In this document: in pieces, positions 37,766-64,000 of the stretch
Layout: each line of letters begins with the position of its first letter
Numbering within the stretch: the stretch's first letter is position 1
Assembly (NCBI GenBank): GCA_947568835.1
Contig: OX387603.1
Coordinates: 20,422,651 to 20,486,650, forward strand
DNA length: 64,000 bases
Origin: Protonemura montana
Taxonomy: Eukaryota; Arthropoda; Insecta; Plecoptera; Nemouridae
Reading direction: 5' to 3'
Made by a program: the position numbers and the translations under genes
The notes under the pieces: model-generated
Databases searched by the model: none
The model's input: only the letters and a program-made list of their open reading frames with translations
Told to the model about the DNA's origin: nothing

Positions 37766-40700
37766 ATGGTGCGAATTGCCTGTAGTTTGTGCTTGTCAGT
37801 GTTGTTAGTGAGCTGCGTGTTATGTCTGGTGTTTTTTGAACGTGTGTCGAGCACGTCTACTGTGAAAAACGACCGGACGATGCTTTTAGCTACAGGTAAA
37901 CCTCAGAGCACTTGCAGTTGGCGTAGGAGAATGCTGTAAAGGGGAATTTACTGCTGGCGTACACTTGACTCGCTGGATCCCGGGTCCAGATTCATCTCGT
38001 TTCTTGTGCTCGCGCGTTGCGATGCCGGGTGTTTGAATTGATTTGGTAGACGAATTGTGTTGTTATAATTGTCTTTGCAGTCAGTTAAAGTGCATGTCAA
38101 CTTTTGCTCTTTAAATGTCACACTGTCTCTCCACACTTGAATATGTCATAAACACGTGTATCTCCTTATCGGGTTCGGAATTCGTGGACCGTGGTTTCGA
38201 TCAAGGCTTTCAATAGCATGGTAGACGAAACGCGAGAAAGAAAAACCCTTTCTAGATTATTTTTTATTTCGCGAACTATTTCAATGTCACACTTTCTCGA
38301 CTTTTCTGTGGTAAAAAAAAAAAAAAGTGATTGTCTGGATCTGTCGCTGACATCGATAAAATTTGCGGCATTATCGTGAGAAATCAATGGAGTGTAACAT
38401 CTAGATCTAGGATGTCCTGCTTTCCCCAAAACCTTTGCTTCTTTTGTTAAGTTCTTTATTCTTGACATTTAGATCACTTTTTTCACATAAAAACCCTATG
38501 CATTTTACCCGAACAGCGTGTCATTCATCCTGTGTTGGTTTCAGTTATTTTTTGCTTATCTGTCTCCACCCACAACTTCCTATCGAGAATTGTAAGGGCA
38601 CAGCCGCGCTTAAACAAAGAATATAAAACATAACTTTGGGGTGCATTGTATTGAACAGACGCCCACGCGCCAGAAGGTGAATTTCGTGGTCTTGCTTGCG
38701 TCTGTTTGTTTTGCGAGCTACTGATTTAGTTCAACATGGAAAACATTGTCCTCGTCGTTGCGCTCCATGGTCTGTCGGCTTGTATTTGGATTGTGCATTG
38801 TTTCCACAATTTTAAAACTATGCCTTTTAAATTATAACAGTATAATTTAATTTTTTTTTTTTTTCATACGCTTACAGATTTATACAAATTTTTTGTTTTA
38901 ATTCCAACTTTTTTTGTGAAACCAAGATTTTTTTCGGCATTCCGATCGCACATTGCGCAACGCAAATTGCTCTGGTCTTGGGTCTTTGACACTTGCATAG
39001 GCTCTGGAATCGGTTGGAGCAAATTACTTTCGATTTTTTCTGACCAGTATAACAGGTTCCGCCGAATAGTTAGTGACCCCGACATCGAGATGCTCGTCTT
39101 TGAGGACGTAGCACTTTCTTGAAGATTCTTGCAAACCAAATAAATGCATGGACAAACTTTGTCTATGTGTTTGCCCGAAAGTCCACCTTTATAACTAAAA
39201 CCACTGAGAGCAGAACGCCTTACCCTCGTTTGCAATTTCTCATTAACTGCGTGCATGTGACGCGACTGTACGGAATTGTAAGATGACATTTCTTAGCCGT
39301 TATGGGTCGCTTATCACCATGAAAGATGATGATGCTAGTCAAGATGCTGGCTTCTGGGTAATCTGTTGTGTGGTCTCGCGTAACATTTAGTAGCGGCCGG
39401 CAATGCACATTAATTGAAGTGATGTCATAAGACTTTAATTCACTCTAGACCGGCGAGATGCTCGTCGTAATATGTATCAAACTAAATGCTATCTGGTCCA
39501 TAGTTTTTCAATGATTGAAAAATAGCGACGGTTTTACATTTTCACACCCTAATGCAATGGCCAGAAAAAGTGAAAAACTTCTCAAACCTCTTAGCAGAAT
39601 AATATATATTTTTTATTTTACAATATAGGCACTACTGCATTTTTTTAAATTAAAAATAGCCGGAAAATACAGAAATTCATTGTTTTTTTGTAACTAAGTT
39701 TTTGTTAATTAATCAACTTAACAATTGTCATTTTTCATTTCCTATGTTTTATTTTTTAATTATTATGCTCTTTTCACGTCCCTACATTCTCTCTGTTTCT
39801 ACATTTTTCAGACGCCACTCTCCTGGCGGTAGCATCCAACGAGACCGATGGCTACAAGCGGTTCATCCGTTCGGTGGAGACGTTCAACATTCAATATGAG
39901 GTTCTTGGCATGGGAAAGCCATGGAAGGGAGGCGACATGAACAACGTCGGCGGAGGGTACAAGATCAGGCTGCTCAAAAAATACCTTGAACCATTCAAGG
40001 ACGATGCCACCAAACTGTTCATGTTCACTGATAGGTATGTCTTCCACAACTTTTGTCTGGGACAATGGGCTTAGTGGGTTTTGAAATCTATTTCAAGAAT
40101 CGGTATTCTCATTTAAATTTGCAAGGATTGAAGGAGTTTGGCTTCTGCAGACTGTAACTGCAGACTGCAGCCGTACATGCTACTTGAGACCCACGTTTTG
40201 GTGTGGAATGTATTTATTGTTGGGGCTAATCAAGTACCTGTGGTATAAACTATCCAACTAGTTGGAATAAGGGGTGTGTGGGAGAACTAGTGAGGAGAGG
40301 GCTGGAATAAAAACTTTATTATTTTGGGCCATCTTATTGTAAGAAATCTGCTAAGGTTTAAAGCTATCAATACACTTATTGCTAGGTAAGGTACCTCTAG
40401 CTTTATTTTGTTCACTTGAATTGTAAAAATGTTATTTGGAAAGTTATTTCTTCAAAGTTTTAACATAAGAAATCTTTGCACCTGTTTTCCTGTATTGTTT
40501 TGACGGCATTGTGTCTGTTGCATTAAGTTACGACGTCATAGTGATGGCCGGCATGGACAAGATCTTGTCAGTTTTCGAGCAGTTTGACGCGCGTGTCGTC
40601 TTCTCTGCTGAAGGATTTTGCTGGCCAGACCGATCACTGGCTGCCAAGTATCCAACTGCCCCCAGGGGAAAACGATACCTCAACTCTGGAGGTGAGTTGT

Positions 40701-43700
40701 CGAAGGTGCACTACTGGTACTCTGAACTGTTACGTCCTTTCAGAGCTGATCAATTTTTCTTGCTTAGCGCACAACAGCACTTGATTCTATAGTGACTGAC
40801 CCTATCCTCCTACCCTCTTCCTAGTTACTGACCCTACTGGTAACTGGTCCTGTTACAGCTATTGTGACTGGGATGGGTACTCTAGAAATAATTTTTACGG
40901 TCATATCTTTTCACGAACCAGATGACAAACCATGGCAAACTGTTTTTTCAACACATCCTACCTGTAAATTGTAGGATTTTATCCTGAAGGGAGAAGAAAA
41001 AGAAACTTCTTTCAGAGCTAATGAAATGGGAGACAATTTAATGCACCGGAGAATCTATCGAAACTAGGCTTGCGTGAACGTAATTGAGGCCAAATGTACT
41101 TTTTCGAAGCGATGTAAGGTATGCCATTTTACATGTTTCAGGTTTTATTGGATTTGCGCCTGAGCTATACCAGATCGTCACGTCTTCTGAAGTTTCTGAT
41201 ACTGATGATGACCAACTGTTCTACACTAAAGTTTTCTTAAATGAGAAACTACGAGTTAAATTAAACATAAAACTCGATCACAAGTCAGAGATATTTCAGA
41301 ACCTTAACGGTGCAGTTGGTAAGCAATCTTAATCTCTAGGATATTTATTATTTGACAATAAATATTTCCAATATTAAATGTTTACTAAACGTAATGCTGA
41401 AATGAAGCCAATAAGTGCAATGCAACAAGACAATAAGGTAGATCCCATTTGGAGAGCTTCTTTTAATGTGATAATAAAAACAGTAACTTAATCTTTGTTC
41501 AGAGAAGATATTTTGAAAGTCAGTGCCACTGGGTTGGGCTAGAAAATAATCCACGTACCTTAAGTCTCGGAGATACTTAAAGTTTTCACGCTGAAACAAT
41601 CTGTCTTTATCGTGAACCCCGCTTAACGGTTGCATAACAGCCGCCTTTCTGCACAGATGACGTGGAGCTACGTTTCGATGAGGATACGCACGAGGCATAC
41701 TTGCAAAACACAGTGTCAGGTACGATCCCATGGGTCATTCATGGAAACGGGCCAAGCAAACTGGTGCTCAACACACTTGGCAACTACCTTGCAAACAGTT
41801 GGAATACAAAAGACGGATGCGTGGCGTGCTGGGACAAGATCGTGCCTCTCAACGATGTTGATGTGAGTTGAGTTCAGTTTGGCACAACAGGCTAGGCTTA
41901 GGGTGCCGGTAAATGCCAGGAGTTGAGCTGTAATTCACTAAATTTCACTGTGGGGATGACCTCCCTAGCTGTGTCTCTTGTGGGTGGTCCTCTAAAATCT
42001 CAATCCGGGATTTTGGAGATAAAGGGATTGTAATATATCAGGGATTGTAAGAGATTGGGAATTGTAATATAATCATCATAGAAAAGATATAATTATAAAA
42101 ATGTAACACTGCCCACTTTTTTCTAACCTTCAAATCAGATGGCAAAAATATAAACTATTTGAAAAAAGTTGAATGAAGTCTGCTTAACAGTTAAAGTTTC
42201 CCAATAAACAATTTGAAAACTACTTTTTTTTATAATTTTTGTGCTCCAAATCATATTTTCGATAAAATTTTTCTAAATTATTTTAAATTGGAAAAAAATG
42301 TTTTTTTTTCGGTTCAATTGCTCACTGGCCTTAACTGGTCACTCTGAATGACTCATTTATTTGATGAAACTTCAGTAAATCACATTTATGTGTAAGTTGC
42401 AACTAACATTTGTGCATCGTTTGTGTTTCTACAGCTAACAAAATACCCGACAGTATTAATTGCTGTGTTCGTCGAGACACCAACTGCTTTCTTGCAAGAG
42501 TTCCTTGAGAAAATTGATAACCTCAACTACCCCAAGAAGAAGCTGCATCTCTTTGTACATAACAATGTAAGTAGTTTTGTCTGTTCATGATTTTCAATTC
42601 AAATTCAGCTCATTTCCCAGTTGATAATTTACATTTTTTAACTGCAGGTGCCTTATCATGTAGCTCAAATTGACGAGTTTTTGGAGAAACATCGAGACAA
42701 TTATCAAAGTGTGAAGCAAATTGAACCGGAAGATAATGTTCGTGATGCTAAAGCAAGAAGCTTAGCGCTGTGAGTATGCTGTACTTTTTTAGCTAACTAA
42801 AGGGGTTCAGTGTTAGAGTTACAAGGCTGCAATAGTGTCATTATGAAACAAAACCTTGTTTTATTTTTGACATTGCCAAGGTGACAAAACTAACAATTTT
42901 GTGTTTTAAGCATAGTTAAACCATTATGATTGATAATACTAACTTAGAGTGTGGTTTATTGTAGTGATTACAGTGCAACAAAGAAGTGCGACTTCTACTT
43001 CAATGTGGACAGCGAGGCTCACCTTGATAATCCGCACACACTGAAACTGCTCGTCGAACAAAACAGGTTCGAAACAAAATTTCATACATTCAGGATTGTT
43101 TAGTTTTAAAAAGCGTGTGTAACAGGTTCATGGGTATTAAGGATTAGATAGCAATGCCTTCTTCAAAAGTGGTCAAAGAAAAGAAATTGTGTTGCCAAAT
43201 TGCTAGACCAACATAATATAACTATGCTCATTTGGTCTGAAAAAAAAATTGTCAGTATGGGAATTGCAACTTCAAAATAAGCAGCATAGATGTGACATCT
43301 GGTTTAAACTGCAAACTCTTGCAATACACTGTGTTAGTAGTGTTCATAATAATAAAAATCAGCAAAGATGTTTGCAACTTTTACAGTTGAAACTTGTCCA
43401 TCACACACCATGGGATTAAAAACTCCTCGACACAAATCAAATTGACACAAATCAATGAATGAAACTCGTTGATCTAGCAACAGCCGAGCGTAATGTGGTT
43501 TTTTTGTGCAGGAGCATCATTGCGCCGGTGCTGGTGCGACCACACAAACTCTGGAGCAACATTTGGGGCGCGATGACCAGCGACGGCTTCTACGCCCGGT
43601 CCATGGACTACATGCAGATCATTCACAATGAAAGGCGGTGAGTAGCGTTTACGCTGTACAATACGCATGCATTTAATATTTAGGCAGCCTTCCCAGGGCA

Positions 43701-46700
43701 AAGAAATGCACTCGGTAATAACTTGGTAATCATACTGGTGAGCTACGTTCTTCTTGTTTCTCAGTTCCAGATCTTTGTCATATTGGCTACGTGTAAATTA
43801 ATATTAAATTAATGTTAGCTTGGGTTCAGTCCAGCTTTCTATTTGGCTGGTCTGTTAAAATAATTCAAACATTTTTATTTTGAAATGTTTATTGGTTCAT
43901 TCACAGATTAATTATCATCTACTTATTAAATGCCCTATTTATTTGATTACAATTATTGAACATATTTTGATGGTGTGACACAGAATTAATTCCTCTTCTT
44001 TAAGCCACTGTGGAGCCACCGTGGAATGTCCACTACATTCTCAATTTAATTGCATAGTGTCTTGACCATTTGGTTGGTTTCTTAAACTAATTAAATTTAT
44101 TAAAGGGGCATTTACAATTCAAAATTAATTTTTACCATGGATTTGGAAGATTTAATAATGGCATTTGAACTATAAAAAAAACTTGTGTGTCCACGGCCGT
44201 CCGTGCAAAAATTGCCAAAGTCCGCGTTTTTCCGCTTGGGTGCTTAGAAAACAAACTCCCGGAAGAAATAATCCAAAGTGCTTTTTCGACCCCGAGCACC
44301 TGGACTAACCACTGATCAGATAAAATTCAAATAATTTGAGCAAAGTCATCCATCCTTCCTTTGTGTTAAAATAATTTGGCTTTATGATGCGATTATTCGT
44401 TTAGCCACGGTGAACGAATTACCTCTGGTGTGGTGTGTAATTAGCATTTTGCATATATTCGTGCAGTGCCGCTCTGAGCGTGCCGGGGCTGAGTCGTGAG
44501 AAGGGAGAATCGGTAGGGAGGGGATGGACCCAACGAAGATTGCCCGCAGGAAAAGACAGTACTCTAAAAGAAAATCGTACTCGCAGATCGCGCCTCGCGA
44601 AAAGCCAGAAATCTTGGAAAATTAATTGCAGATCCATATTTTCAGTAAATTCTTTTAAATAGGTAAATTTCGATTCATACTACAGTTACAAATCTATGGT
44701 AAAAATTAATTTTGAAGGGTAAATGCCCCTTTAAGGTAGTTGTATCGGGTGCTTACTCTGGTTTACTGGATGCAACTAATTGGCCAAACTACTTGTCTGA
44801 TCGCAACGAATAAAAAAAAACTAGGTGACTCATCATACTATTGGCAGTGGATTGATGCTTTTCAAAATCAAAAATATTATTTTGTCTTATAGTGACGTGA
44901 CACGATAAGAGCCTGTTTACAGTGTTTTTTCGGTGTTTTTCAGAAAAAAATCACAGTTTTCTTATCAATTGTGAATTCCAATTTTCTTCAATCTGCTAAC
45001 ACCATTAAACTACATATAAAAAAAAATACTAGAGCCAACCATTTTGAAAAGCCTCAATTATTAGTTGTACCTAGTTTATATAATATATATCTTTAAAAGA
45101 ATGGATTTTTTTGGGAAATTTGCACTAAGAGATTTTTTTAGTTGCTGAAAGCTTTTACCAACCCCAATTAAAAAATAAAAAATAGGCTTTTGTTCCTTGG
45201 AGCCCCCAGGAATAGAAGATGGGGGCAATGCAACCACTTCAAAGAGTTTTATAGCATCTAGCCACATAATTAATTATCAATATTTTTAACTAGCTTTAAT
45301 GTTACTGTTTGTACGTTGATTAATTGGTTTTTACGCATGCAATGTTTGTGCTGCTAACTAAGTGGTGCCGTGTCTCGAAAGCGTTTGTTAGTCAAACGTG
45401 ATGCTGAAGTCAGTCTTAAAACTCCTCCGATCCACTGAATACATGTTGTCGGCCGAACACTCGTAGAGTCCGGCATCCATTTGTGTGGCTGGGTCGATTT
45501 CCAGCTTACTCTTCACTCGGTCTTTCCCCACCGGCCACTCGTGCACCTGGGGTTGGAGACTCGCAGATGAAAAACATCAAATGAAAAGAACTGTGCTGTC
45601 AACAATTATTTTGACTGTCACGCAAATAAAAAATTTCCTAGTAAAGGCCCCAAGAATGCAATATTGTACCATTTTTTACTTTTGGATTTTAGTATGTGGA
45701 AAATCCCACCCTCTAAGACATCACTGTGAGATGGACTTACCATTAGGTTGTAATGGGCGTAAATCTCTGATCCATCCTTGAACCAAGTAACATATGGCCT
45801 TGGAGAGCCACGAGCAACGCAAAGGAAAATTATTTTATGTCCCAAAGTGTATTCATAGTCAAAGTGTGATGCCTCAAGGATCTTGGCTCCCTGGAAATAA
45901 ATACACAATCCATCTGCAAACATTTTACTAAAATTAAGAAACAAAGATTTTGGCAGCTCATGCCAAGCATTGAGAACAATCTGCATTTCTGCTACAGTCG
46001 TGTTAGCCTTACCTTGCCACAGCGTGGTGGACTTTGACTACCTATTGCCAGCATTAGATTGCAAAATAAAGCTAGTCTTTACCGGGGAGTTTGAAAATTA
46101 ACCAGTAAATTATTAAACAACAATACATCTAGCATTTAAATTCTTTGTAAATTGATCAGTTTATTTACGTGAAATTAAATCTATTGAAAAATAAGAACTT
46201 GAATACAAAACTAAAAGTCCTAGTGACTTCTGCTAAGTACCTACCGTACACTAGCGGATTCTAGCAATGGCTGCTAAAGAGCGGTTTGCAAGCTTGGGTG
46301 CATGCTAAAACCCGATAAAAGTTAAAAGTAACCCAACATATATTAATTTGAACTTTGGTTGATCAACTTTTTTTTTTTCATTTAATATTTTATTTTTACT
46401 GAAATCATTACCTAAATGTTTCAACCAAAGAAAAACATTTTTTTCTGCTTTTAAATCAGATAGCTAACAGTAGCATCGTGGTACCATGTCTTCTAGGTTG
46501 GTACAAGGACCCCAGAAAGTAGCAAACTCAAATTAATCCTAGTTTAGTGGCAAGATGTTGTATTTTGCACCTATTTGCTAAATTTTACAGAGGTTACAAA
46601 TCAAGACTAGCTTGCCTTAACTCTGTTTTTTTTTTTTTAAATGGGTATTTAATATTTAGTTCAGCTAAATTGTTTTCAATTGAATTTTATCAACTATTCT

Positions 46701-49700
46701 GGCTATTTAACTATTTTGTAACCAGATTTCCTCCATCGTTAACCCTCAGTTGCGGTTTGCCTCACTTGTTGGTTGTTGTAATATGAGTCGGACTCTGTGT
46801 CGCGGTACTGCCCGGTAACGGGCAGCCCGATCTGCACCCTGGAGTTGGTACGGGTCCTGGCCCTCCCACGTCGTCCCATCGCTCCCCTCGGAGCCCCGAA
46901 CATCAGAAGTAGCATGAGAAGCAGGCTTACCGTACATCCACTCATTACCTGCCAGATCCAGAGCCACCGTTTACAACCAAATGGACATGAACTCTGTCAA
47001 AATCTTAAAACACTAGGCAAGGAGCGTAGCTGATCCACAAAAGTCAGACCAAATAATTTTTTTGTTTTGGCTGGATTATATTGGTTCTAAAACCTGCCTG
47101 TGATTTGCCTCGACGTAATTTAAGCCACAATATTTCAGAACTTGTATATTTGGTGAAAACTGTTAACGTTTTCCCTAAAACTGAAGTTTCTTCAACACAT
47201 TTTTATCGTCATGGAGAGGTGTCGCGAAAAAATCTCGTTCGGCAGGCCTCGGATTCGTGATAGTATTAAAATTTTCCTTTCTGACAATCAACTGGACATT
47301 TTTATATCTTGTAATGCATGCCCAGCAAAAAATAGAAAGGCCTTGCAATTGTGAGGTTGAGTGGTCAATAAGACTTAAATCGCTTGGTCTGCAAATCTTG
47401 AGAGATATTTCTCAAATTGCTTGAAGATTACATTTTCTCAAATAGTTGGTTTGCACATGTTGATAAACTTGAAGGGATCAAATTGATGGCAGGTCAGTGA
47501 TTAACAATTGCGCAACGCAGTGGACTTACCGTAGATTTTTGTGTCAACTTTTGCAATGTTCCTGTGCTACTGAGTTGATTAGTGGTATCGTTGCACACTG
47601 CATACCACCTCTCTTGGTCCAGGGTCGATCATTTCAATCCCCTTTTAATAGATCCTTTCCTCTTCCCCAGCTCAGTTGCACAATCTGTTCATGAACTCAA
47701 TTTGTTCGCACATATCGCTTCGTGAATCTAATTGATCAGTGCCATATTTATCTCACCGGAAACTTGCAGGAATAGTGCCCAAATTTAAAGCCATTGATTT
47801 CTTGAGAAGTTAGTTACTCATTAGTTATCAATTAATTTAACAAAAGTTAATAATCTGTTGGTAGGTTTATGAATTTATTGACATTGACCTTGACATAACA
47901 TTGTATGAAGTCGTTTTCAACCTGCAAAGGGCAAAATCACTGTAGTAAGTTTTGCAGTTATATTGTTTGGTAATAACCGCACATTTTTTTAAATGTTTTC
48001 CAGTCCTCTCTGTTATCTTAAAACTTATAACTGGTTCAGAATGATCTTTCTTTTAAAATAAATTACATTTTTAAAACTAAATATGTTGCTATACTAGGAA
48101 CTAAGGATTTAATTTCTAAGGAATGGTATTGGTAGTTTAGTATACACTAGAGTAACTAGGCTACCTGTTAACTTCGTTACTTTCTTGAAAATAACCGAGC
48201 AAATGCTGTCAGATTTTTTTTCTTACTAACACTGACTAATTGTAAATGTTTCAGGAAGCTCCTATATTTACACCATTTTTTGATAAGCAAAAACCATGCA
48301 ACCATTAAACACTGATAAAAGCATAAATAAACTATTTTTGCAACTATATTAAACAAACATTTTTAATCTCTAAATCTGAAAATAAAGTAATTATGATTTC
48401 CAGTGATACCTAAGCTCTAATCTTACACAACCGGAGAGCCAGCTTTCTATAACTAGTTGAATTAATATGTGTATATAACGTAATCAGTTCGGAACCCTCT
48501 CCTGTCGATGGCATATTGGTTGTCAGCTTGGCATTCGTAGTAGCCAGCATCCTTCTGGGTTGTCGGATCAATCTCCATCTTGCTTTTCATTGTGTCGTTG
48601 TGCATGGGCCATTCGTGGACCTGCCAAAAAATATAAGGCAATGCAATCAGTCAACCATGTACTAGAGATGCGGTAGCCAGTCTTACAACTTTTTAAAATT
48701 CTCTCTCGTACCTGGAAAAACTTGTGGGCGTAAAGTTCGATTCCGTCTTTGAACCATGTGATATGCGGCCGTGGCAGACCCTGTGCCATGCAGAAAAATG
48801 TGATCTTGCGGCCAAGCATGTAGTCCAACTCAAAATGCGAGGACTTGACAATCTTTGCACCCTATAACCAGCAAAAAAAATGCATTCATATCATAAACAG
48901 TTTGCAAAACTTTTCACAACTCTAAAATTTGAAGTGTACTCACATCTTTGTGGTTGTAATAATTAGCGCTGGCTGGGTTCCTATGCACGATCAACACTGG
49001 CATCCTTGACCCATATCCCTTCCGGCCTGCACCCCTCCCCTTGCCACCCCTTCCGCCCCCACCACCACCCCTTGCACTTAAAACCACCGCAACGCACAAC
49101 AAAACTAAGAAAACGCGAAAAATCAACTGTCTCTCCCGCGGAACCATTTTCTAGTTCTTTGCTAAAAAATGCACTTCTTCACTTGGCACTTGACTGGAAA
49201 CGCGTGCAAAATGTATTTAATCAATTAGTTAATAGCTCAATTATAAGTTTATCGCCCAGCTTGTATGCTCTCTGGGCATGACCGCAAAGTACTAGTGAAG
49301 CAGTGAAGCAAAGTCGCTGGTGATTATGAAATATGAGTGTCGTCGCAGAGTGTCCCAATTGGATGATGAGGCTAATTGAGTGGGGGACTTGACGTTTGAT
49401 AGGTGGCGGTGACACCACAAGTCGTGCATGTACACTAGAGGTGGTTGGCTTTGCTGGCCTGGGATACTTGATTGGGAATTACTGCACTTGACATCTGTGT
49501 GAGATAATCAGTTGATTTGCAATCTGCTCTCCCCCTACAAAAAACTGTGTTGTTAATTGCTAGCATATTCGTTGTTATTTTATTTGAAAGGTACACTTCT
49601 TTGTGGGCTACACTTCCGCTGCTTTTATTCCTTAGTAAGAAAGCTTATTTTAGCTAATGAGGACAGTACTTACGTGTAAGGCAGGCTGCAACACCGTTAC

Positions 49701-52673
49701 TTACAATTGAAATGGCAGCATTACATTTTTGCTCAGCTTTAACAAGATTGAATAAATAACTGTTTCTGTTCTCAGAGGTCTTTGGAACGTGCCTTACATC
49801 CGATCATGCTACTTGATCAATTCGACGATTATCGGTAACCCGCTGCTGCGACCGGTCTTTGAACGCGAACAGCTGGATTCAGACATGTCCTTCTGCAACA
49901 GCATCCGGGATAAGGTAATTTAGCACATTTAATATAATTAAGTTTCTCTGAAGACATTCCTCTCAAGGAAGCAACACATGCTAGGGTTGTTGCTGAAGGC
50001 AGATGGTTTTTCAAATACGATGTTCAATCCTGCAGGACTTGTTCATGTACGCTTCAAATCGATTCGATTACGGACATCTTGTGGACAATGACGACTTTGA
50101 CCCAATGAGGACAAACCCTGAGGTTTACGAGTTGTTTAACAATCGGTATGATTGGGAACAACGATACATTCACGAAAATTACACGGAGCACTTGAACCCC
50201 AACAATACATCAGAACAGGTGAGTGAGCTTCTCATGCTATAAAAATCCATCCTCGTAGCAGTTTTAATTGTTCAAGTGAGCTGAAGACAATACACATACC
50301 AATAGGGATATGTTTTACATTTTAATTATCTTTCCAGCCATGCCCAGATGTGTTCTGGTTTCCGGTTGTTACCGAAAGATTCTGTAAAGAGTTCATCGAA
50401 ATCGTGGAAGCATTTGGTAAATGGTCCGATGGCACAAATCAGGTAAGTGCTTTGCTTCTGTATTCTTGTGCATATGTACATTGGTAATCAATTTAGATAA
50501 AGTGTGACTTAAACTTAATCTGCATTTCTAGTTGATCTATGATGCTCATGTCAGATTTGTAAGCACTTTTGTCCTGAAAGCAAATAATATATGCCAATTG
50601 CAACAATAATAACCCTAACGAAGTGCCACTTTTAATTAATGAAACATAAGTTCTCTCAAAATGTTAGTTCAAATTACAGTGCTAACATTCTGTAGACATT
50701 CTACCAGCATTGTGATGAAAATTTTACTTCCTGAAAATTTGATAGTTCCTGGTATGTTGAATGAGAGATGCAGGGACCGGATGGATTTGGTCGTTTTATG
50801 TGCAAGCTGTTTTCAGGACGAACGCCTGCAGGGCGGCTATGAAAATGTGCCTACTCGGGACATTCACATGAATCAAGTCGGCCTTGAACCAGTGTGGATG
50901 CTATTCTTGAAGGATTATATTCGGCCGCTCCAGGAGCGAACGTTCATCGGCTATTTCAACAATGTATGTGCAACCCTTTCGGCTGCAGACAAGGCGTGAC
51001 AAAACGTTTAGTTCCTAAATTAGCATCCTCTTCCCAAGATCCCAAAAATTAGCCCTCATTCTCTTTCTTTCAAACTAGAGTGCAATTTTTTTACTAGGTG
51101 GAATTTAAGAATTTCTGTAAAATTTGCTAGAGGTTTGCCAATGAACACATGACTTTAAATTTCTGATGCAAGATCTTTGTTTAAGAAACTGCATCTGTTA
51201 AATTTAATTGAGAAATCAAAATGGAGTAGAGCAGGAGAAATCAATTCCCTTTTGTCACCCTTCCCACTAACAACGTTTTGTCTGCGTTTTTGTCTGCTGC
51301 CACATTCACTTCTTTCTCTCACGAGTGTTTTCGTATTCAGGACAACCGCATTCAAGGGGGGTACGAAAACGTGCCAACGCGTGACATTCACATGAGCCAA
51401 GTTGGCCTAGAAGAACTGTGGGCCGAGTTTTTGATGGAGTATGTGAGGCCGTTGCAGCGAAAAGAGTTTGTTGGATATCTGAACGTGAGACGAGACAATA
51501 TACTGACTTAACGCACCCTGGGTTTGCAACGGATGCTTTTTAGGACATCTGGGACAAATTGATAAAAACTGTACAGCACATATTGATTTTGTTTCACTGG
51601 GCTTGGTTGTAGTGGACTTGTAGCTAGGCGGTTTGTGGACTTGGTCTGGCTGATGTGTCACTTTGACGAGAGGTCCCGGTAGCAATGTATATAAGAAAAG
51701 AATGCAACATTAGTTTTTAAATTTTCGTTTCAATTTTTAATAGCTGTATTAAATTGACCCATTCCCAACAGCTCAAAACTTATGATAAAAATATCCATGT
51801 TCACATAATACCATAGTTCTGTAGTTCGGTATCAGACTGGTTATGGGAATTGTATTTTGTGATGAGTTGTGTACATATCAATCAGGACGTCCGTCCTTGT
51901 CTATAAGCATCCTTATAATTGTGTTGCCTGTCTCAGCCTCCTCGGTCGCTGATGAACTTTGTGGTACGCTACCGACCCGACGAGCAGCCGTCTCTTCGTC
52001 CGCATCATGACTCTTCCACGTACACCATCAATCTGGCATTGAACAGGCCAGAGATCGACTTCCAGGTCAGTGTAGTGCCTTGTAAGAAGGCACCTGAAAT
52101 AGGTATCACTGGATTTTCTACTCGTTTCAATCGCATTAATGTCTTTGAGGTTACAGGTAGTCAGAGAACCAGTTTTAATGTTACAAATCCTGCAGAGCAA
52201 ACTTTCTTAATACTCTAAATGACAGTGACTACCTAGTAGCAATCAACATTTTTGTCAGTAAAGTAGTCATTTGGCAGTCATTTTTTACGAAGACAGCTAA
52301 AAATTAGCGCTATTGTAGTACCGCAGCATATAATAGTAATGGTATAGTAGTAACGCAGCATAGTAACGTGTTTTTGATTTTTCATAAACACCTACAGTCT
52401 ACCACTAATTTTTGGCAAAATAATCATATTATGTACTCGGATTTGATTGAAGTATTGGTTATAGCAAAATAGCAAGACAAATTCATATTTAAGAGAACAA
52501 ATTTTTGTTGTGGGCAGGGTGGAGGCTGCCGATTCATCCGCTACGACTGCAGTGTGACAAACACGCGACTCGGCTGGCTACTAATGCATCCTGGCCGCCT
52601 CACGCATTACCACGAAGGACTACTCGTCACCAATGGCACTCGATACATCATGATCTCTTTCGTCGATCCTTAA
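37766..52673 (+). CDS. Plod: Procollagen-lysine 2-oxoglutarate 5-dioxygenase (lysyl hydroxylase with glycosyltransferase domain)
   Basis: An ER enzyme that hydroxylates collagen lysines and, in LH3-type members, adds galactose and glucose. Exons: 37766-37895, 39812-40034, 40528-40691, 41142-41318, 41657-41862, 42435-42566, 42648-42769, 42965-43066, 43512-43637, 49776-49914, 50036-50218, 50338-50442, then 50817-50963 or 51341-51484, 51937-52065 and 52518-52673. The product is 746 or 745 residues (human 727-738). The signal peptide is about 1-29. The N-terminal glycosyltransferase domain keeps Asp117, Asp120, Trp150 and His260, which match LH3 Asp112, Asp115, Trp145 and His253. The C-terminal dioxygenase has iron ligands His675, Asp677 and His727 and 2-oxoglutarate Arg737 (13a numbering), ending SFVDP. 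The Trp suggests retained sugar transfer (inference). Intron 9 (6.1 kb) hosts two minus-strand genes. The exon after Gln603 exists in two copies. Confidence 0.96.
37896..39811 (+). other. PLOD intron 1, no gene seen
   Basis: 1.9 kb between the signal-peptide exon and the glycosyltransferase exon. It contains homopolymer A and T runs. Short ORFs inside resemble nothing recognised. Confidence 0.6.
44104..44730. mobile_element. MITE-like element, TTAA-flanked, with inverted terminal repeats
   Basis: The ends are inverted repeats of about 37 bp: AGGGGCATTTAC followed by a TTCAAAATTAATTTTTACCAT block on the left, mirrored on the right. TTAA flanks both sides (44100-44103 and 44731-44734), as expected for piggyBac-type target duplication. 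The interior (627 bp in all) has no transposase ORF. The superfamily call rests only on TTAA and is tentative. Confidence 0.75.
45388..46945 (-). CDS. oig-4: Secreted single-Ig-domain protein, OIG-4 type (copy B)
   Basis: Three exons on the minus strand (46766-46945, 45741-45890, 45388-45546), both introns in phase 0, give 162 residues. The signal peptide is about 1-23, followed by an Arg-rich linker and [14 protein letters not shown]. One I-set Ig domain follows, with Cys in the first core strand (FLCVARG), Trp in TWFKDG, and the D-x-G-x-Y-x-C motif ([11 protein letters not shown]). In C. elegans OIG-4 is a muscle-secreted protein that stabilises acetylcholine receptor clusters; arthropods have close relatives. 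The function here is inferred from family. The gene sits entirely inside PLOD intron 9, antisense to it, and has the same exon design as the next gene (exons 2 and 3 are 150 and 159 nt in both), so the pair is a tandem duplication. Confidence 0.88.
48462..49147 (-). CDS. Secreted single-Ig-domain protein, OIG-4-like (copy A)
   Basis: Three exons on the minus strand (48944-49147, 48712-48861, 48462-48620) encode 170 residues. The signal peptide is about 1-24, followed by a Gly/Arg/Lys-rich linker and [20 protein letters not shown]. One Ig domain follows, with Cys in FFCMAQG, Trp in TWFKDG and the [11 protein letters not shown] motif. Exon phases and the lengths of exons 2 and 3 equal those of the neighbour at 45388-46945, and the Ig domains share most core residues, so this is a paralogue. 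The basic linker suggests binding to acidic matrix or receptors (inference). It is nested antisense in PLOD intron 9. Introns are only 82 and 91 bp. No function is claimed beyond a secreted Ig protein. Confidence 0.88.
50817..50963 (+). other. Plod: PLOD alternative exon 13a
   Basis: 49 codons, phase 0 at both ends, starting [18 protein letters not shown] and ending IGYFNN. It has a good acceptor (TGTTTTCAG) and donor (AAT|GTATGT). About 33 of 48 aligned residues match exon 13b. It encodes part of the dioxygenase domain upstream of the iron-binding HHD. Confidence 0.88.
51341..51484 (+). other. Plod: PLOD alternative exon 13b
   Basis: 48 codons, phase 0 at both ends, starting [18 protein letters not shown] and ending VGYLN. 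The acceptor is CGTATTCAG and the donor AAC|GTGAGA. Its first residues ([13 protein letters not shown]) are closer to the human PLOD sequence than those of 13a. Either copy alone keeps the frame. Confidence 0.88.
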
Positions 52674-56831: not shown

Positions 56832-59800
56832 ATGTTGGTGAGGAACCTGCTAGTCTTGGTGTGCTCTATCGTCGTTAACTCGCGTAAGTACCCGCAAGGG
56901 ACGACATGCATTGCAGTCAGCTGACACCTGCAATGCTGCAGGGATTAAATCATCTCGTTTTTAAACGATTTCTTGTTTTGTGGTTTTTTTTAACATTGAG
57001 TGTTATGTCAGATGTACCGATCTTCGATTTAATAACCTGTTATAGTGCTTAAAAAAAAAGACTTGTTAAAATCTCCTTTAGCAAAAGGACAAATTCCTTT
57101 ATATTCATAGTTGGTCACCTTTAAGCTGCTACAAAAAGATCTAAAGGATTTTGTATTGATACTTCAGTTCGATCTCAGCCAAAAGGAAAAATACCCACTG
57201 CTGCTTCAGTGAGAAAAGGTTTCACAGCCCTGTAGACATATTTTGCCGTAGGAGCCAGCGGAAACAGAGGGCTTTGAAACATCCTCTCACTCGGGATGGA
57301 CTATTTCACCCGCGTTTTAAAAATCTTTTGTCTCTTCTGTTCCATCGCTTTGCTTGGACGTGAGCGTTTCTAAGTAAATTTCGTAAAAGTGCTTCTCAAT
57401 CGTCTTTGCGTGTTTCAAGAATACGTTAGAATACATTTTTTTGTAAGAGATGGTTGAAGAAAAACTAGAAAAAAGAAAACTTTTGGATTGATTCATGCAC
57501 ATTTATTATGTGCCATATACTGTTATAATGATGATCAAGAATCACGCAAAATCACAATGTAGGACCATTCCAATCATCAGGTTCAAATTAGCTACAATAA
57601 ACCCCATGGTTTCTCGGATATCAAACTGCGAAAGGTGCTAATGTATAGTTGGTTCGCAAATATAATTTCCCATGGTGAGGTATTTTACGATTCATCGATA
57701 AAGAAAGCGACCAAGAAATTCACAAATACCACTAGACATGCTGGTCATCTGGCTCTGAATGACTCACGAACATGTAATACCGACATATTTATTGCTAAAA
57801 AAATGTGATGTTTAATAAATTCAAATTTCAGTGAAGTAAAAGTAAGAAACGAAGTTCTTGTAATACACGCACTAGAGACTAGTGTATTTCATCACTGGGC
57901 AGTTTCTGATTGATAGGGAAGGAATTGAAATGTGTGGATTGGGTTTAGTAAGATATATTCTGCCACCCATCTAATATAACTCTTCGCACTAGAGCTCCTA
58001 TAATTCCTAACAAATTATTTCATCTCCCTAGATTGCCAATTTTGGGGCAACGTAGGGGTGCGCCACGGGGGGTTCCCCTCACCCCCACAGATCGACGAGT
58101 GCCCTCTTGGCGGAAGTGCATCGTATAAGTGCGTTCCAGCTTTCCGGTGTCCGCATTCCCAAGCACGGTTTAGCAAATACTATTGCGGTTGGAACGGAAG
58201 GATGCCCCTTGTGTGCTGCGAAACGCATCCCGCAGAACAAGGTAGCGACGATGGGCTTTTCTTGAATTTTCTATCGAAATGGAAATGGATATTTGATTAG
58301 CAACTAATTTCTGCCCCCATTTCCGCCGTTGTTTGTTTTTGCCATTTTTTTTATTCAAAGCAAACCTATTTCTTTTCAATTGGTAGCAAGTGAACTCTTC
58401 TCAAAATTTGACCGGCACTGAATTCGATTTGTCTTATTAGAACAGTTTTAGTGTGAAACATTTTTGAAGGACGGGTTGAAACGAAGGGCGTATTAACTGC
58501 ACAAAATAGAAATATAACTAGAAAAAAGCGCGGTGTCAGAATTTTATCTCGAGGACGGGGCGAGTGTAGAAAGCAAGATCACCAATTAGATTTATATTTC
58601 TAGGAACACACTTGTTATACGTGAAGAATGTCTACAGGGAAACTCCGTGTAAGAAACTCGAAATCAATTCCCTAAGATCCTGATTGAGATCCTGTTACTG
58701 TAGGAATTTAACCTGGCTTCTCTTCAACTTTGTAAGTAAAGTTATGGGGAATTGCTTGCGTAACATTTGTATTGACATTAATTAACGTTTAATTATGTTC
58801 ATATCGTAAGTTCTTTCATTACATATAGTCCAGTTTCTCGGCACAACGGAAACGCATTTGTGTAAGAAATAACAACCCGGACGGGTTAGATTATCGTCCC
58901 AGTGTCCAAACTTCCCAGAGCTCCCACCTGACTGGTCGTTACTCTTCCAGGATGTGGTTTGGTCCATGGGGCGTCGTCTCGACCCCGAGAACACATCCTG
59001 TCCGCCATCGTGGGAGGCATTTCGCTGCGCCAGGCGTCGACGTCGCCGTGGATGGCAGCCGTCGGGGAGCGTCTCGCGGACGGCTCCGTCAACTGGTACT
59101 GCGGGGGCACACTCATCAACTCCAACACGGTGCTCACCGCGGCTCACTGCGTCATAAGAAAGTAGGCCTAAAAGTGTTTTTGAAAAATTAACATGACAGA
59201 CAAAGATTCTTGGTGGCTCGGAAGATTTTGGAAAGAAAAATGTAAAAAGGGGGGAAATGCTGAAGACTGCAACAGTACATGCTGTAGACGTGCAGCATGC
59301 GGCAGTAAAGACGCGGAGGATTGGAAACCTGAATGAGCTTACATTGAATGTTGATTGGAACTTTTGGGAAGAGGTTAAGATAAAGTAGACACGAGGTTTC
59401 AAATACTCCTCCAACTTCTGTTTGAAGGAACAGCTCTTTATCCGAGAAATGGTCGTAGGAAGCCAGGGAAAAATTAAGATACCAGCTATGTACCAAGTAT
59501 ACAGTAAAACCATAGAGAAACAATTATTACCAATTATAAACAATTATTATTCCTTGCGTCCCCCAGAAAGCCTAACATGGTACGTGTAGGCGACCTCGAC
59601 CTGTCGCGCACCAATGAGCCGAACGCCTCCCCCGAAGATGTCCAAGTGATCGCGACGACGGTGCACCCCGACTACAAGCTGCCCGCCTACTACCACGATG
59701 TGGCTCTCCTGCATCTCGCCCGAGCAGTGCGCAACAGCAAGTTCGTCAAACCCATCTGTCTGGCGTCTGACCCAGCGCAGATGTTTGCTACCAAGATGGC

Positions 59801-60860
59801 CACCCTCACAGGATGGGGGCACCTCGAATTTGGTAAGCCACTGCCGTATTTTGAGTAACCTCCACTCGTATGGGTCTCGTAATGCACGCCACGTCGTTGA
59901 TTGTCGTAGCGTATTTGATAATTTTTGATATACTGTATGTCTAGATTTGAAGTGGAACATTGCTGAGCTTCACTAAGATAATCTACGCCACGCTAGCCTG
60001 AAAGCATGCATAAATCATGCATGCTTTCCTGAATCCTGATTTTGACCATGCTTGCTGCAACTGTTCCCACATGGCAATCACAAATGTAGAATAGAGAATA
60101 TAGAAACAATATAGAAAAAAGTGCCTGTTATATCCGAAGATGTTTGTTTTAAAGGGGGTGACAAGAGCAACGTTCTGCAAGAAGTGGGCGTCACCGTTTG
60201 GAACAATGCGGACTGTACGAAAGCGTACGCTCCACCGAAAGTTCCAGCCAAGAACTACCCAAGAGGCATAATCGACTCGCAGATGTGTGCAGGGGACCCC
60301 AAGGGTGGGAAGGACGCTTGTCAGGTGGGAGCAACCACTTTTAAAGATTAAAAAGTCTTTCGCCGAATTAAATCATTTGCTCCAGCTGATAAAAGCGCCA
60401 TCAGTTCTTTCGCCCTAAATGACTCTCACTGGGGTAAAATAACAAAAAATCCTAAGAACCCAGGTAAATAACAGTAGCAGTCTAGCTTCCTTTCCATTCC
60501 TCGCTTGCTGGTTTCCCCTGTAGTAGCAGTATAGACCCGAAAATCATGTCGTCTTTTATTTTGTTTCAGGGTGATTCCGGGGGCCCTTTAGTGGTGAAAG
60601 TCGGCAACACACACACCCTTGTAGGCATCGTGTCGTCAGGCATTGGCTGCGGCGCCAAATCTTTTCCAGGAGTCTACTCCCGAGTCTCTTCCTATGCCGA
60701 ATGGATAAACGAGCAGTCCAAGAAGTACTCCGGGTACCGACCGCGACCAGGATACGGCCAGGGCCCGGGACCCGGAGGCCCTAACAGATACAACGGCAAC
60801 GGTGGTAACGGCGGAAACCGATACAACCCTTACCAGTGTTCTCAATTCAACCCGTGCTAA
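56832..60860 (+). CDS. Clip-domain trypsin-like serine protease, secreted
   Basis: A zymogen of the type used in arthropod clotting, melanisation and Toll-activating cascades. Six exons (56832-56883, 58032-58241, 58951-59161, 59567-59832, 60155-60324, 60570-60860) give 399 residues. The signal peptide is about 1-17. The clip domain is 41-80 with six cysteines (41, 51, 57, 69, 79, 80). Cys89 is placed to tether the light chain. The catalytic domain starts IVGG at 107-110, with triad His153, Asp202 and Ser306; Asp300 at the base of the pocket predicts cleavage after Arg/Lys. Oddly, the residue before IVGG is Ala106, not Arg or Lys. A Gly/Pro/Tyr/Asn-rich tail of about 45 residues with two Cys ends the protein. 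The physiological substrate is unknown. The acceptor at 58031 was chosen because it alone keeps the clip domain in frame. A TCAGT initiator-like motif lies near 56798. Confidence 0.92.
56884..58031 (+). other. Protease intron 1, no gene seen
   Basis: 1.1 kb between the signal-peptide exon and the clip exon. Apart from a weak U2-like match on the minus strand near 57170-57200 nothing was recognised. Confidence 0.6.
60000..60028. repeat. Perfect 12-bp inverted repeat
   Basis: GAAAGCATGCAT, five bases, then its exact reverse complement, in the protease intron 59833-60154. It could form a small hairpin; no function is suggested. Confidence 0.9.
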
Positions 60861-62611: not shown

Positions 62612-64000
62612 ATGTGTTTACGGGAGTGGTTTGCTCTCTGGCTGGCAGGGCTGTTTTTCATTGGGCTCTCCACGTGCGTCTTGGGTGTGGACACACTCTG
62701 CAGCAATCTGACGAGGTAAGTAACTCGTTGGATATTTCATTTGGATTCCATCTCAGATAGTAACTTACCAAAACTGTTACAGACACTCAGATATCGGAGA
62801 TGAGCTGCTTCAATATTCTAGGAATATAACTATAGTGGTATGTACTAAACAACAAGACATCCCATAGAATTATTTAATAGAAATTACTTAATAATAATGA
62901 TATGATATCTTACCACGTTACTTCGTTTTCTCATTTAGCCACGAAAAGTGCTCTATTGTTGTCTGGGCTACACACCCATTGGCAGTACAGACCAATTTTC
63001 AGAAGTCAGGTCAGAAAAGGATTGCGAGCCGTTCTGCCGTCCTACCTGTCCCGCAAACAGTACGTGCGTACCACCAAAAATCTGCGAGTGCGTGTCCGAC
63101 GCAGAATTCCACCAGGAGTACTTCTCACCGAGCCAATGCATGTGCAATCCAGGATTTACACACAAATCGCCGGAGCAGTGCGTACCAATCTGTCCTGATT
63201 TTTGCACCAATGGCGTATGTATCAACAAGAAATGCGTTTGCAATGAAGGATACAGGACAAACGGGAGTGGTCTGTGCGTGCCCCGATGCGTTGCTGGATG
63301 CCGGGAAGGGGAAGAGTGTACGAGCCCCAATGTGTGCTCCAGTGACACGGTTTGTGTGAACGAAAAATACGAGCGAAATGACTCGGGCAACTGTGTACCG
63401 AAATGCACGGATTGTTCAAACGACAAATGCGTTTGCGAAGCTGCTGAAAAATGCGTTACCGTCCCGGGTTACGCATTTAACAGCGTTGCTAGCAAATGCG
63501 AAGCACTGTGCGACAACTGTGAGGACGGCTTGTGCATTGCTCCAGGAGTCTGCGGCTGCTTGACTGGATCTCAGCTGGTAAATGGGATTTGTGAGCTTTG
63601 TACAGACTCTGGGTGCTCCGACGCTGGTAGTACTCCCGGGCACTCCAGGTGGATTATTCCTGTAATACAAGTGGGAGGTGTACTTTGCTTGATGGCATTA
63701 ATTGTTCTCGTTTCAAAATGCCGAGCAAAACGAAGAAAGATGGAAGGAAAGCACGCAGAACGAAAAAGTAAAGTTATAATCACCTCTCTACAATATTCAG
63801 CTTTCATCAAAGCTTTTTCCGTCAGTGGTTGTGTTGAGAGAAATTACGTGACATTTCTAAAAGTATTTAACAAAATTAATGGGTCTGTTATTTTTCAGGG
63901 TTTAATAATGAAAGCCGAGATCGATTCCGGAAAAGGGTTGAACAACACAGGTTTGGAAACAAATTGCGACCCCCGTGCCCCCTGCCAAGGCCAAGGCCAA
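62612..64000 (+). CDS. Nimrod/EGF-like transmembrane receptor, partial (runs off right edge)
   Basis: Exons 62612-62715, 62783-62837, 62939-63767 and 63899 to the window end. The ATG at 62612 gives a clear signal peptide (about 1-25). An EMI-like start follows, with Cys near 30 and CCLGY in the next segment. The ectodomain then has about seven Cys-rich EGF/NIM-type repeats, such as CTNGVCINKKCVCNEGYR. A membrane segment lies at about 293-313 (starting IIPVIQVGGVLCLMALIVL), followed by a basic cytosolic stretch. Drosophila Nimrod, Eater and Draper proteins of this layout are phagocytic receptors on blood cells and glia; which subgroup this belongs to is not clear. The long 829-nt exon holds almost the whole ectodomain. 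The cytosolic tail continues past base 64000, so signalling motifs cannot be judged. Confidence 0.82.

Follow-up and report, generated by a model that had tools for sequence, protein, structure and literature searches.

Does the PLOD (procollagen lysyl hydroxylase) gene of the plecopteran Protonemura montana encode two enzymes by exchanging a single exon? The question arises from a 64,000-nucleotide (nt) stretch of DNA (assembly GCA_947568835.1, contig OX387603.1, positions 20,422,651 to 20,486,650 of the forward strand), which we call the window and whose own coordinates are used for the gene below. A first-pass annotation of the window had proposed that two adjacent PLOD exons code for the same piece of the lysyl hydroxylase (LH) domain and are probably mutually exclusive. 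We observed that both exons are present, and we refer to them as exon A and exon B. Our preferred explanation, which we consider likely from sequence comparison and published structures, is that an exon was duplicated in tandem long ago in the one PLOD gene that our searches detected. The two copies would be used alternatively, most likely one per transcript, giving two lysyl hydroxylases with the same core and a different LH surface.

Exon A (50817-50963; 147 nt, 49 amino acids) and exon B (51341-51484; 144 nt, 48 amino acids) lie on the + strand between a constitutive exon that reads PCPDVFWF...GTNQ (50338-50442) and a constitutive exon that carries the iron-binding HHD (51937-52065). The introns are 374 nt upstream of A (50443-50816), 377 nt between A and B (50964-51340) and 452 nt downstream of B (51485-51936). 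Each copy has AG before it, GT after it and phase 0 at both ends. They share 33 of 48 amino acids and 98 of 144 nucleotides, with an alignment score of 184 against a self-score of 269 (ratio 0.68). By published sequence criteria, the pair qualifies as candidate mutually exclusive exons (PMC3923563; here and below, papers are cited from excerpts). Either copy, joined alone to its neighbors, runs in frame to the stop codon. The first 25 residues of the next exon place the pair just before the HHD, as the first-pass annotation had it. It had also noted that the differences concentrate after a GLE motif, contrasting ten residues of A with ten of B, and this held: 12 of the 24 positions after the motif differ, against 3 of the 24 before it (Fisher p = 0.011).

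Could the similarity be fortuitous? Chance is excluded, because a search of the assembly (258,480,905 bases in 34 contigs) with exon A matched only itself and exon B (E = 9.0e-19). Nothing else was found at E <= 0.001, so no third copy was detected at that threshold anywhere in the 258 Mb. A six-frame scan of the window, ignoring positions that overlap A or B, likewise gave no third copy (best score 33, compared with 257 and 195 for the pair). No relatives were confirmed in bacterial, archaeal and viral contig collections, a result that is uninformative about conservation in animals. Use of exon A as an alternative last exon was not favored: read-through stops after 11 codons and leaves a product without the iron site. 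The poly(A) words AATAAA and ATTAAA are both absent from the A-B intron.

The gene that carries the pair was modeled at 39812-52673 on the + strand from exon candidates and a match to GT_PLOD (PF25342) on its N-terminal side (1.4e-25; 90.4 bits, cut-off 27). The model starts downstream of the signal-peptide exon or exons, which were not located, and the borders of its second and seventh exons are unsettled. The LH domain of isoform B aligns with human LH3 over 237 residues with zero gaps (phmmer, 1.2e-96); isoform A is one residue longer than isoform B. The HxD...H of the 2OG/Fe LH domain is present, with both the PHHD and the later His conserved. Taken singly, exons fall under the Pfam 2OG-FeII_Oxy cut-off of 23, at 18.2 and 21.5. 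The last coding exon (52518-52673) holds the conserved dimer leucine at the LH3 Leu715 position and ends with FVDP and the stop codon (52671-52673). We found no second PLOD locus in the assembly by searching with exon A, with the catalytic exon that follows the pair or with GT_PLOD. The catalytic exon matched only itself, and all four GT_PLOD matches lie inside the PLOD gene (39814-41820).

Where in the enzyme does the exchanged segment lie? We equated exon residue k with LH3 residue 596+k, taking chain position 574 as Asp597, anchored by the ligand names used in the papers. The exon then spans LH3 597-644, which takes in half of the capping loop, all of helix 618-639 and a portion of the dimer loop. 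In LH3, the active site is capped by a flexible loop, residues 590-610. His595, Asp597, Asp611 and His613 can bind a second iron and lock this loop, and Arg599 is positioned like the substrate lysine. Helix 618-639 is followed by a loop (640-650) that partly forms the dimer interface, and residues 640-646 are among the most mobile (PMC6082870, PMC9453210). In L230, a viral relative, Leu873 sits in a pocket of Tyr798, Tyr801 and Tyr831 and thereby locks the dimer. The cleft that separates the two active sites contains L230 Lys804; reversal of the charge at Lys804 left dimerization intact and raised the estimated collagen Km from 2.6 to 9.6 uM (PMC5802723). In our alignment, Tyr798 corresponds to exon residue 43 (Phe) and Tyr801 to exon residue 46 (Tyr) in both copies, and Lys804 corresponds to the first residue past the exon junction. 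Tyr occupies the 831 position and Leu the 873 position, so the dimer leucine and its aromatic pocket are conserved. The exchanged segment thus holds part of the active-site lid and two of the three dimer-pocket aromatics, and its last residues border the collagen cleft. The first-pass annotation had suggested that the differences may tune substrate or partner choice. The published structures lend this support by the location of the segment, and the tuning itself we infer.

We then asked which residues change. A and B do not differ at any of the six mapped functional residues (D597, R599, D611, H613, F639 and Y642). The 15 differences fall 2 of 14 in the capping loop, 1 of 7 in residues 611-617, 10 of 22 in the helix and 2 of 5 in loop 640-644; exon A also has an extra Asn at its end, adjoining the cleft position. 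Within exon residues 23-35, the unchanged L23, E24, W27, F30, L31 and Y34 lie at 80-200 degrees on a helical wheel, and the seven changed residues lie at 220-40 degrees. A separation equally clean occurs in 13 of 1,716 arrangements, in a stretch picked after looking, which makes the split a description. It looks as though the helix has kept its buried face and altered its outer face. Exclusive exon pairs in general are biased toward surface residues (PMC7954323).

With a single exon chosen for each transcript, the gene would produce two enzymes with a common catalytic core. The main differences between them would lie along helix 618-639 and in the loop after it, next to the dimer interface and the collagen cleft; the capping loop would carry two minor substitutions. 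The outer face of the helix and the dimer and cleft edge might then tune collagen binding, dimer stability or partner binding. Dimers of one A and one B subunit would also be possible.

Several observations weigh against the reading of alternative use, most likely one copy per transcript. First, A alone, B alone, A plus B and neither copy all run in frame to the normal stop codon. Because all four combinations stay in frame, neither the reading frame nor nonsense decay would enforce exclusivity. Second, the donors of A (AAT/GTATGT) and B (AAC/GTGAGA) are not clearly weaker than the others of the gene, where the last exon base is not G in 3 of the 11 donors listed, and site strength gives no hint of regulation. 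Third, the complementary docking sequences proposed as a check in the first-pass annotation did not emerge convincingly. Three intron pairs, folded whole and by 30-nt windows, gave no convincing docking or selector pair: the best score was reached by 1 of 40 shuffles, and the others by 38, 153 and 40 of 200 and by 28 and 12 of 40. The best of these is not convincing, because six tests were made, in one genome. Fourth, the sequence criteria that pick out the pair also select constitutive exons, with 169 constitutive exons tabulated against 775 predicted ones in what we presume to be the Drosophila melanogaster column of PMC3923563. Fifth, the split of faces is not clean over the whole helix (exon residues 22-43), which shows 12 switches around the wheel. 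Finally, LH3 His595 is replaced by Asn (50437-50439, in the constitutive exon before the pair). As a result, neither isoform has a full second iron site: three of the four ligands are kept in each copy. That site is a description of human LH3, which we do not take as defining the whole PLOD family; the self-inhibition lock published for LH3 may be missing or modified in the enzyme here.

The proposal of mutually exclusive use hence stands in part. Alternative use is strongly indicated, because including both copies would put a second 48- to 49-residue copy into a compact enzyme domain. Strict exclusivity is not imposed by frame or nonsense decay. Incompatibility between the major and minor spliceosomes is also ruled out as an enforcer, all introns being GT-AG. 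The A-B intron, at 377 nt, is not too short for splicing when taken linearly, and steric hindrance would come into play only if a predicted hairpin forms. Nine splicing-factor words were counted in five stretches and none was clearly enriched; Fox words numbered zero in all five.

Perhaps the copies are alternative without being strictly exclusive, one serving as the default and the other as a regulated cassette, with some transcripts carrying both or neither? We regard this as unlikely. Neither the frame nor the intron length forbids it, and human PLOD2 does have a cassette exon elsewhere in the protein, as the first-pass annotation had noted (exon 13A, which distinguishes LH2a from LH2b; PMC8055892). 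That case resembles the present one in being alternative splicing of a PLOD gene. It differs in place and in kind of event: exon 13A is a nonduplicated cassette of 21 residues in the accessory domain, outside the LH domain, and affects glucosyltransfer (PMC8055892). Against the cassette arrangement, products with both copies or neither would probably be dead enzymes, and selection should favor their exclusion.

A device for such exclusion may exist in the A-B intron. Its predicted hairpin pairs 50980-51013 with 51265-51302 (-40.2 kcal/mol), starting 16 nt past the A donor and ending 38 nt short of the intron end. The 3' arm contains the intron's only ACTAAY word (51266); ACTAAY is a branch-point-like word, and a count as high as this one occurs in 20 of 200 shuffles. 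None of 100 dinucleotide shuffles of the intron reached the hairpin energy (best -29.5), whereas 3 of 123 other 377-base segments of the window did. By a simpler stem score, 3 of 300 shuffles reached it. Folded whole, the intron beats its shuffles by a small margin (z = -1.48; 5 of 100). Under the simple score, a strong stem also occurs in the intron downstream of B, equalled in 1 of 60 shuffles. The hairpin was noticed after several folds had been viewed, and we treat it as a lead. Speculatively, it would bring the A donor near the B branch region, or hide that region, and in either case would hinder joining of A to B.

A second alternative is that one copy is used and the other has survived as a relic, spliced in rarely or never. 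Exon-duplication relics do exist. We compared rates of change between the copies by the Nei-Gojobori method in our own script. Synonymous changes amount to 22.2 in 30.7 sites (dS 2.49, saturated) and nonsynonymous changes to 23.8 in 113.3 sites (dN 0.25), a ratio of about 0.10 (Fisher 4.6e-7 on rounded counts). Third codon positions differ at 24 of 48. Neutral evolution of one copy ever since the duplication should have given a ratio of about one half or more; this figure was reasoned and not simulated. Both copies retain an open frame, intact splice borders and the same six functional residues. They are equally close to human LH3 (27 of 48 residues for A and 26 of 48 for B), and hence neither is the decayed one. 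These data make a relic very unlikely. We conclude from these comparisons that the duplication is old and that both copies have been kept under purifying selection.

The claim of a tandem duplication is upheld along with that selection, but not by the equal spacing offered for it. Intron plus exon does come to 521 bp in both units (374+147 and 377+144), as claimed, but the two introns are dissimilar. The intron before A and the A-B intron hold no common repeat, and 115 of 200 shuffles score as well as the true pair. The intron before A against the intron after B gave a score reached by 4 of 200 shuffles, which we judged not significant as one of three comparisons; for the remaining comparison the count was 118 of 200. 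Such dissimilarity is as expected, because neutral sites are saturated. The equal length of 521 bp is a coincidence.

Inclusion of both copies in every transcript, so that the LH domain would contain some 48 residues twice over, we consider highly improbable. The A-B junction does keep the frame through to the stop, and the two introns are of the ordinary GT-AG type. However, the segment comprises lid, helix and a loop that leads into the beta core of a compact enzyme, and the LH3 alignment is otherwise gapless (isoform B); adding the segment again would probably disrupt folding and dimerization. An assembly artefact, with a collapsed allele or misjoined sequence posing as one copy, is extremely unlikely: only a single assembly is at hand, but 46 of 144 bases differ with synonymous sites saturated, the surrounding introns are unrelated, and both copies lie on one contig of a 34-contig assembly.

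How does the preferred reading, of two alternative copies under selection, compare with known systems? Tandem duplicated exons are a well-known kind. The pair resembles mutually exclusive exons in general (PMC3923563, PMC9741552) in that neighboring homologous exons share similar length, phase and splice-site type, with selection on both; it differs in that exclusivity is only inferred here. Neither PLOD nor lysyl is mentioned in the available text of PMC9741552, which deals with human exclusive-exon events and with counterparts in arthropods and nematodes; nor does that of PMC3923563 mention PLOD. Another parallel is the PKM1/PKM2 pair, also exclusive exons of an enzyme, in which changed residues at an oligomer interface alter PKM activity (PMC7954323). 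PKM is another enzyme, a tetramer with an allosteric site, and the effect is demonstrated there, whereas for the PLOD pair it is proposed. We found no description of a PLOD exon pair in the open-access literature, searched by titles and the beginnings of abstracts, with most subscription papers and annotation databases outside the search. This agrees with the first-pass annotation, which knew of no such arrangement; it is quite possible that an annotated isoform pair in other arthropods has gone unnoticed.

Vertebrates have several lysyl hydroxylases, LH1, LH2 and LH3, whose catalytic residues agree and whose collagen preferences differ (PMC13382579). Those are separate genes; in the present case, two enzymes might come from a single gene through its exon pair. 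How LH isoforms choose among collagens when their active-site residues agree is an open question (PMC13382579). Collagen choice would be open to direct testing with a natural enzyme pair distinguished by no more than 15 substitutions and a single added residue, located around the lid, the dimer edge and the cleft. If the exons are used as we propose, they would show that additional lysyl hydroxylases can arise while the gene itself stays single-copy.

Might the isoforms serve different collagens? We observed at least two collagen IV loci (eight matches to the C4 model, at two places on contig C1 and on opposite strands) and two fibrillar collagen C-propeptide loci (eight COLFI matches, at C16:12997755-12998878 and C2:7847521-7849829). 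With one PLOD gene found and several collagen loci, a division of labor between the isoforms is plausible. A bolder version, which we consider unlikely, is that this single arthropod gene makes two dedicated enzymes, say one acting on collagen IV and the other on fibrillar collagen, by an exon swap at the cleft and dimer edge, with exclusivity enforced by the hairpin. If so, one gene would do what vertebrates do with three. As a separate observation, the collagen IV loci (C1:7674409-7676422 on the - strand and C1:7729043-7730418 on the + strand) stand head to head, about 53 kb apart.

Other features surround the pair. Downstream of PLOD, on the + strand, the window holds a trypsin-type serine protease exon (59508-59855; PF00089, 4e-11) and a cysteine-rich open frame (62939-64000) whose EGF-like matches are all sub-threshold. 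Within the 6.1-kb PLOD intron at 43638-49775, two immunoglobulin-domain genes lie antisense, on the - strand (45400-49200). They have I-set matches above the cut-off and are identical at 29 of 46 positions over one stretch, and by this likeness they look like a nested tandem duplication.

The usual arthropod telomere repeat is TTAGG. Arrays of it number 7,938 forward and 7,633 reverse in the assembly, compared with 1 and 0 for the reversed control, in keeping with an arthropod source. Many of those on C1 are internal and far from the contig ends, in addition to any true telomeres; positions 916562, 11637666 and 16524876 are examples among the first places listed.

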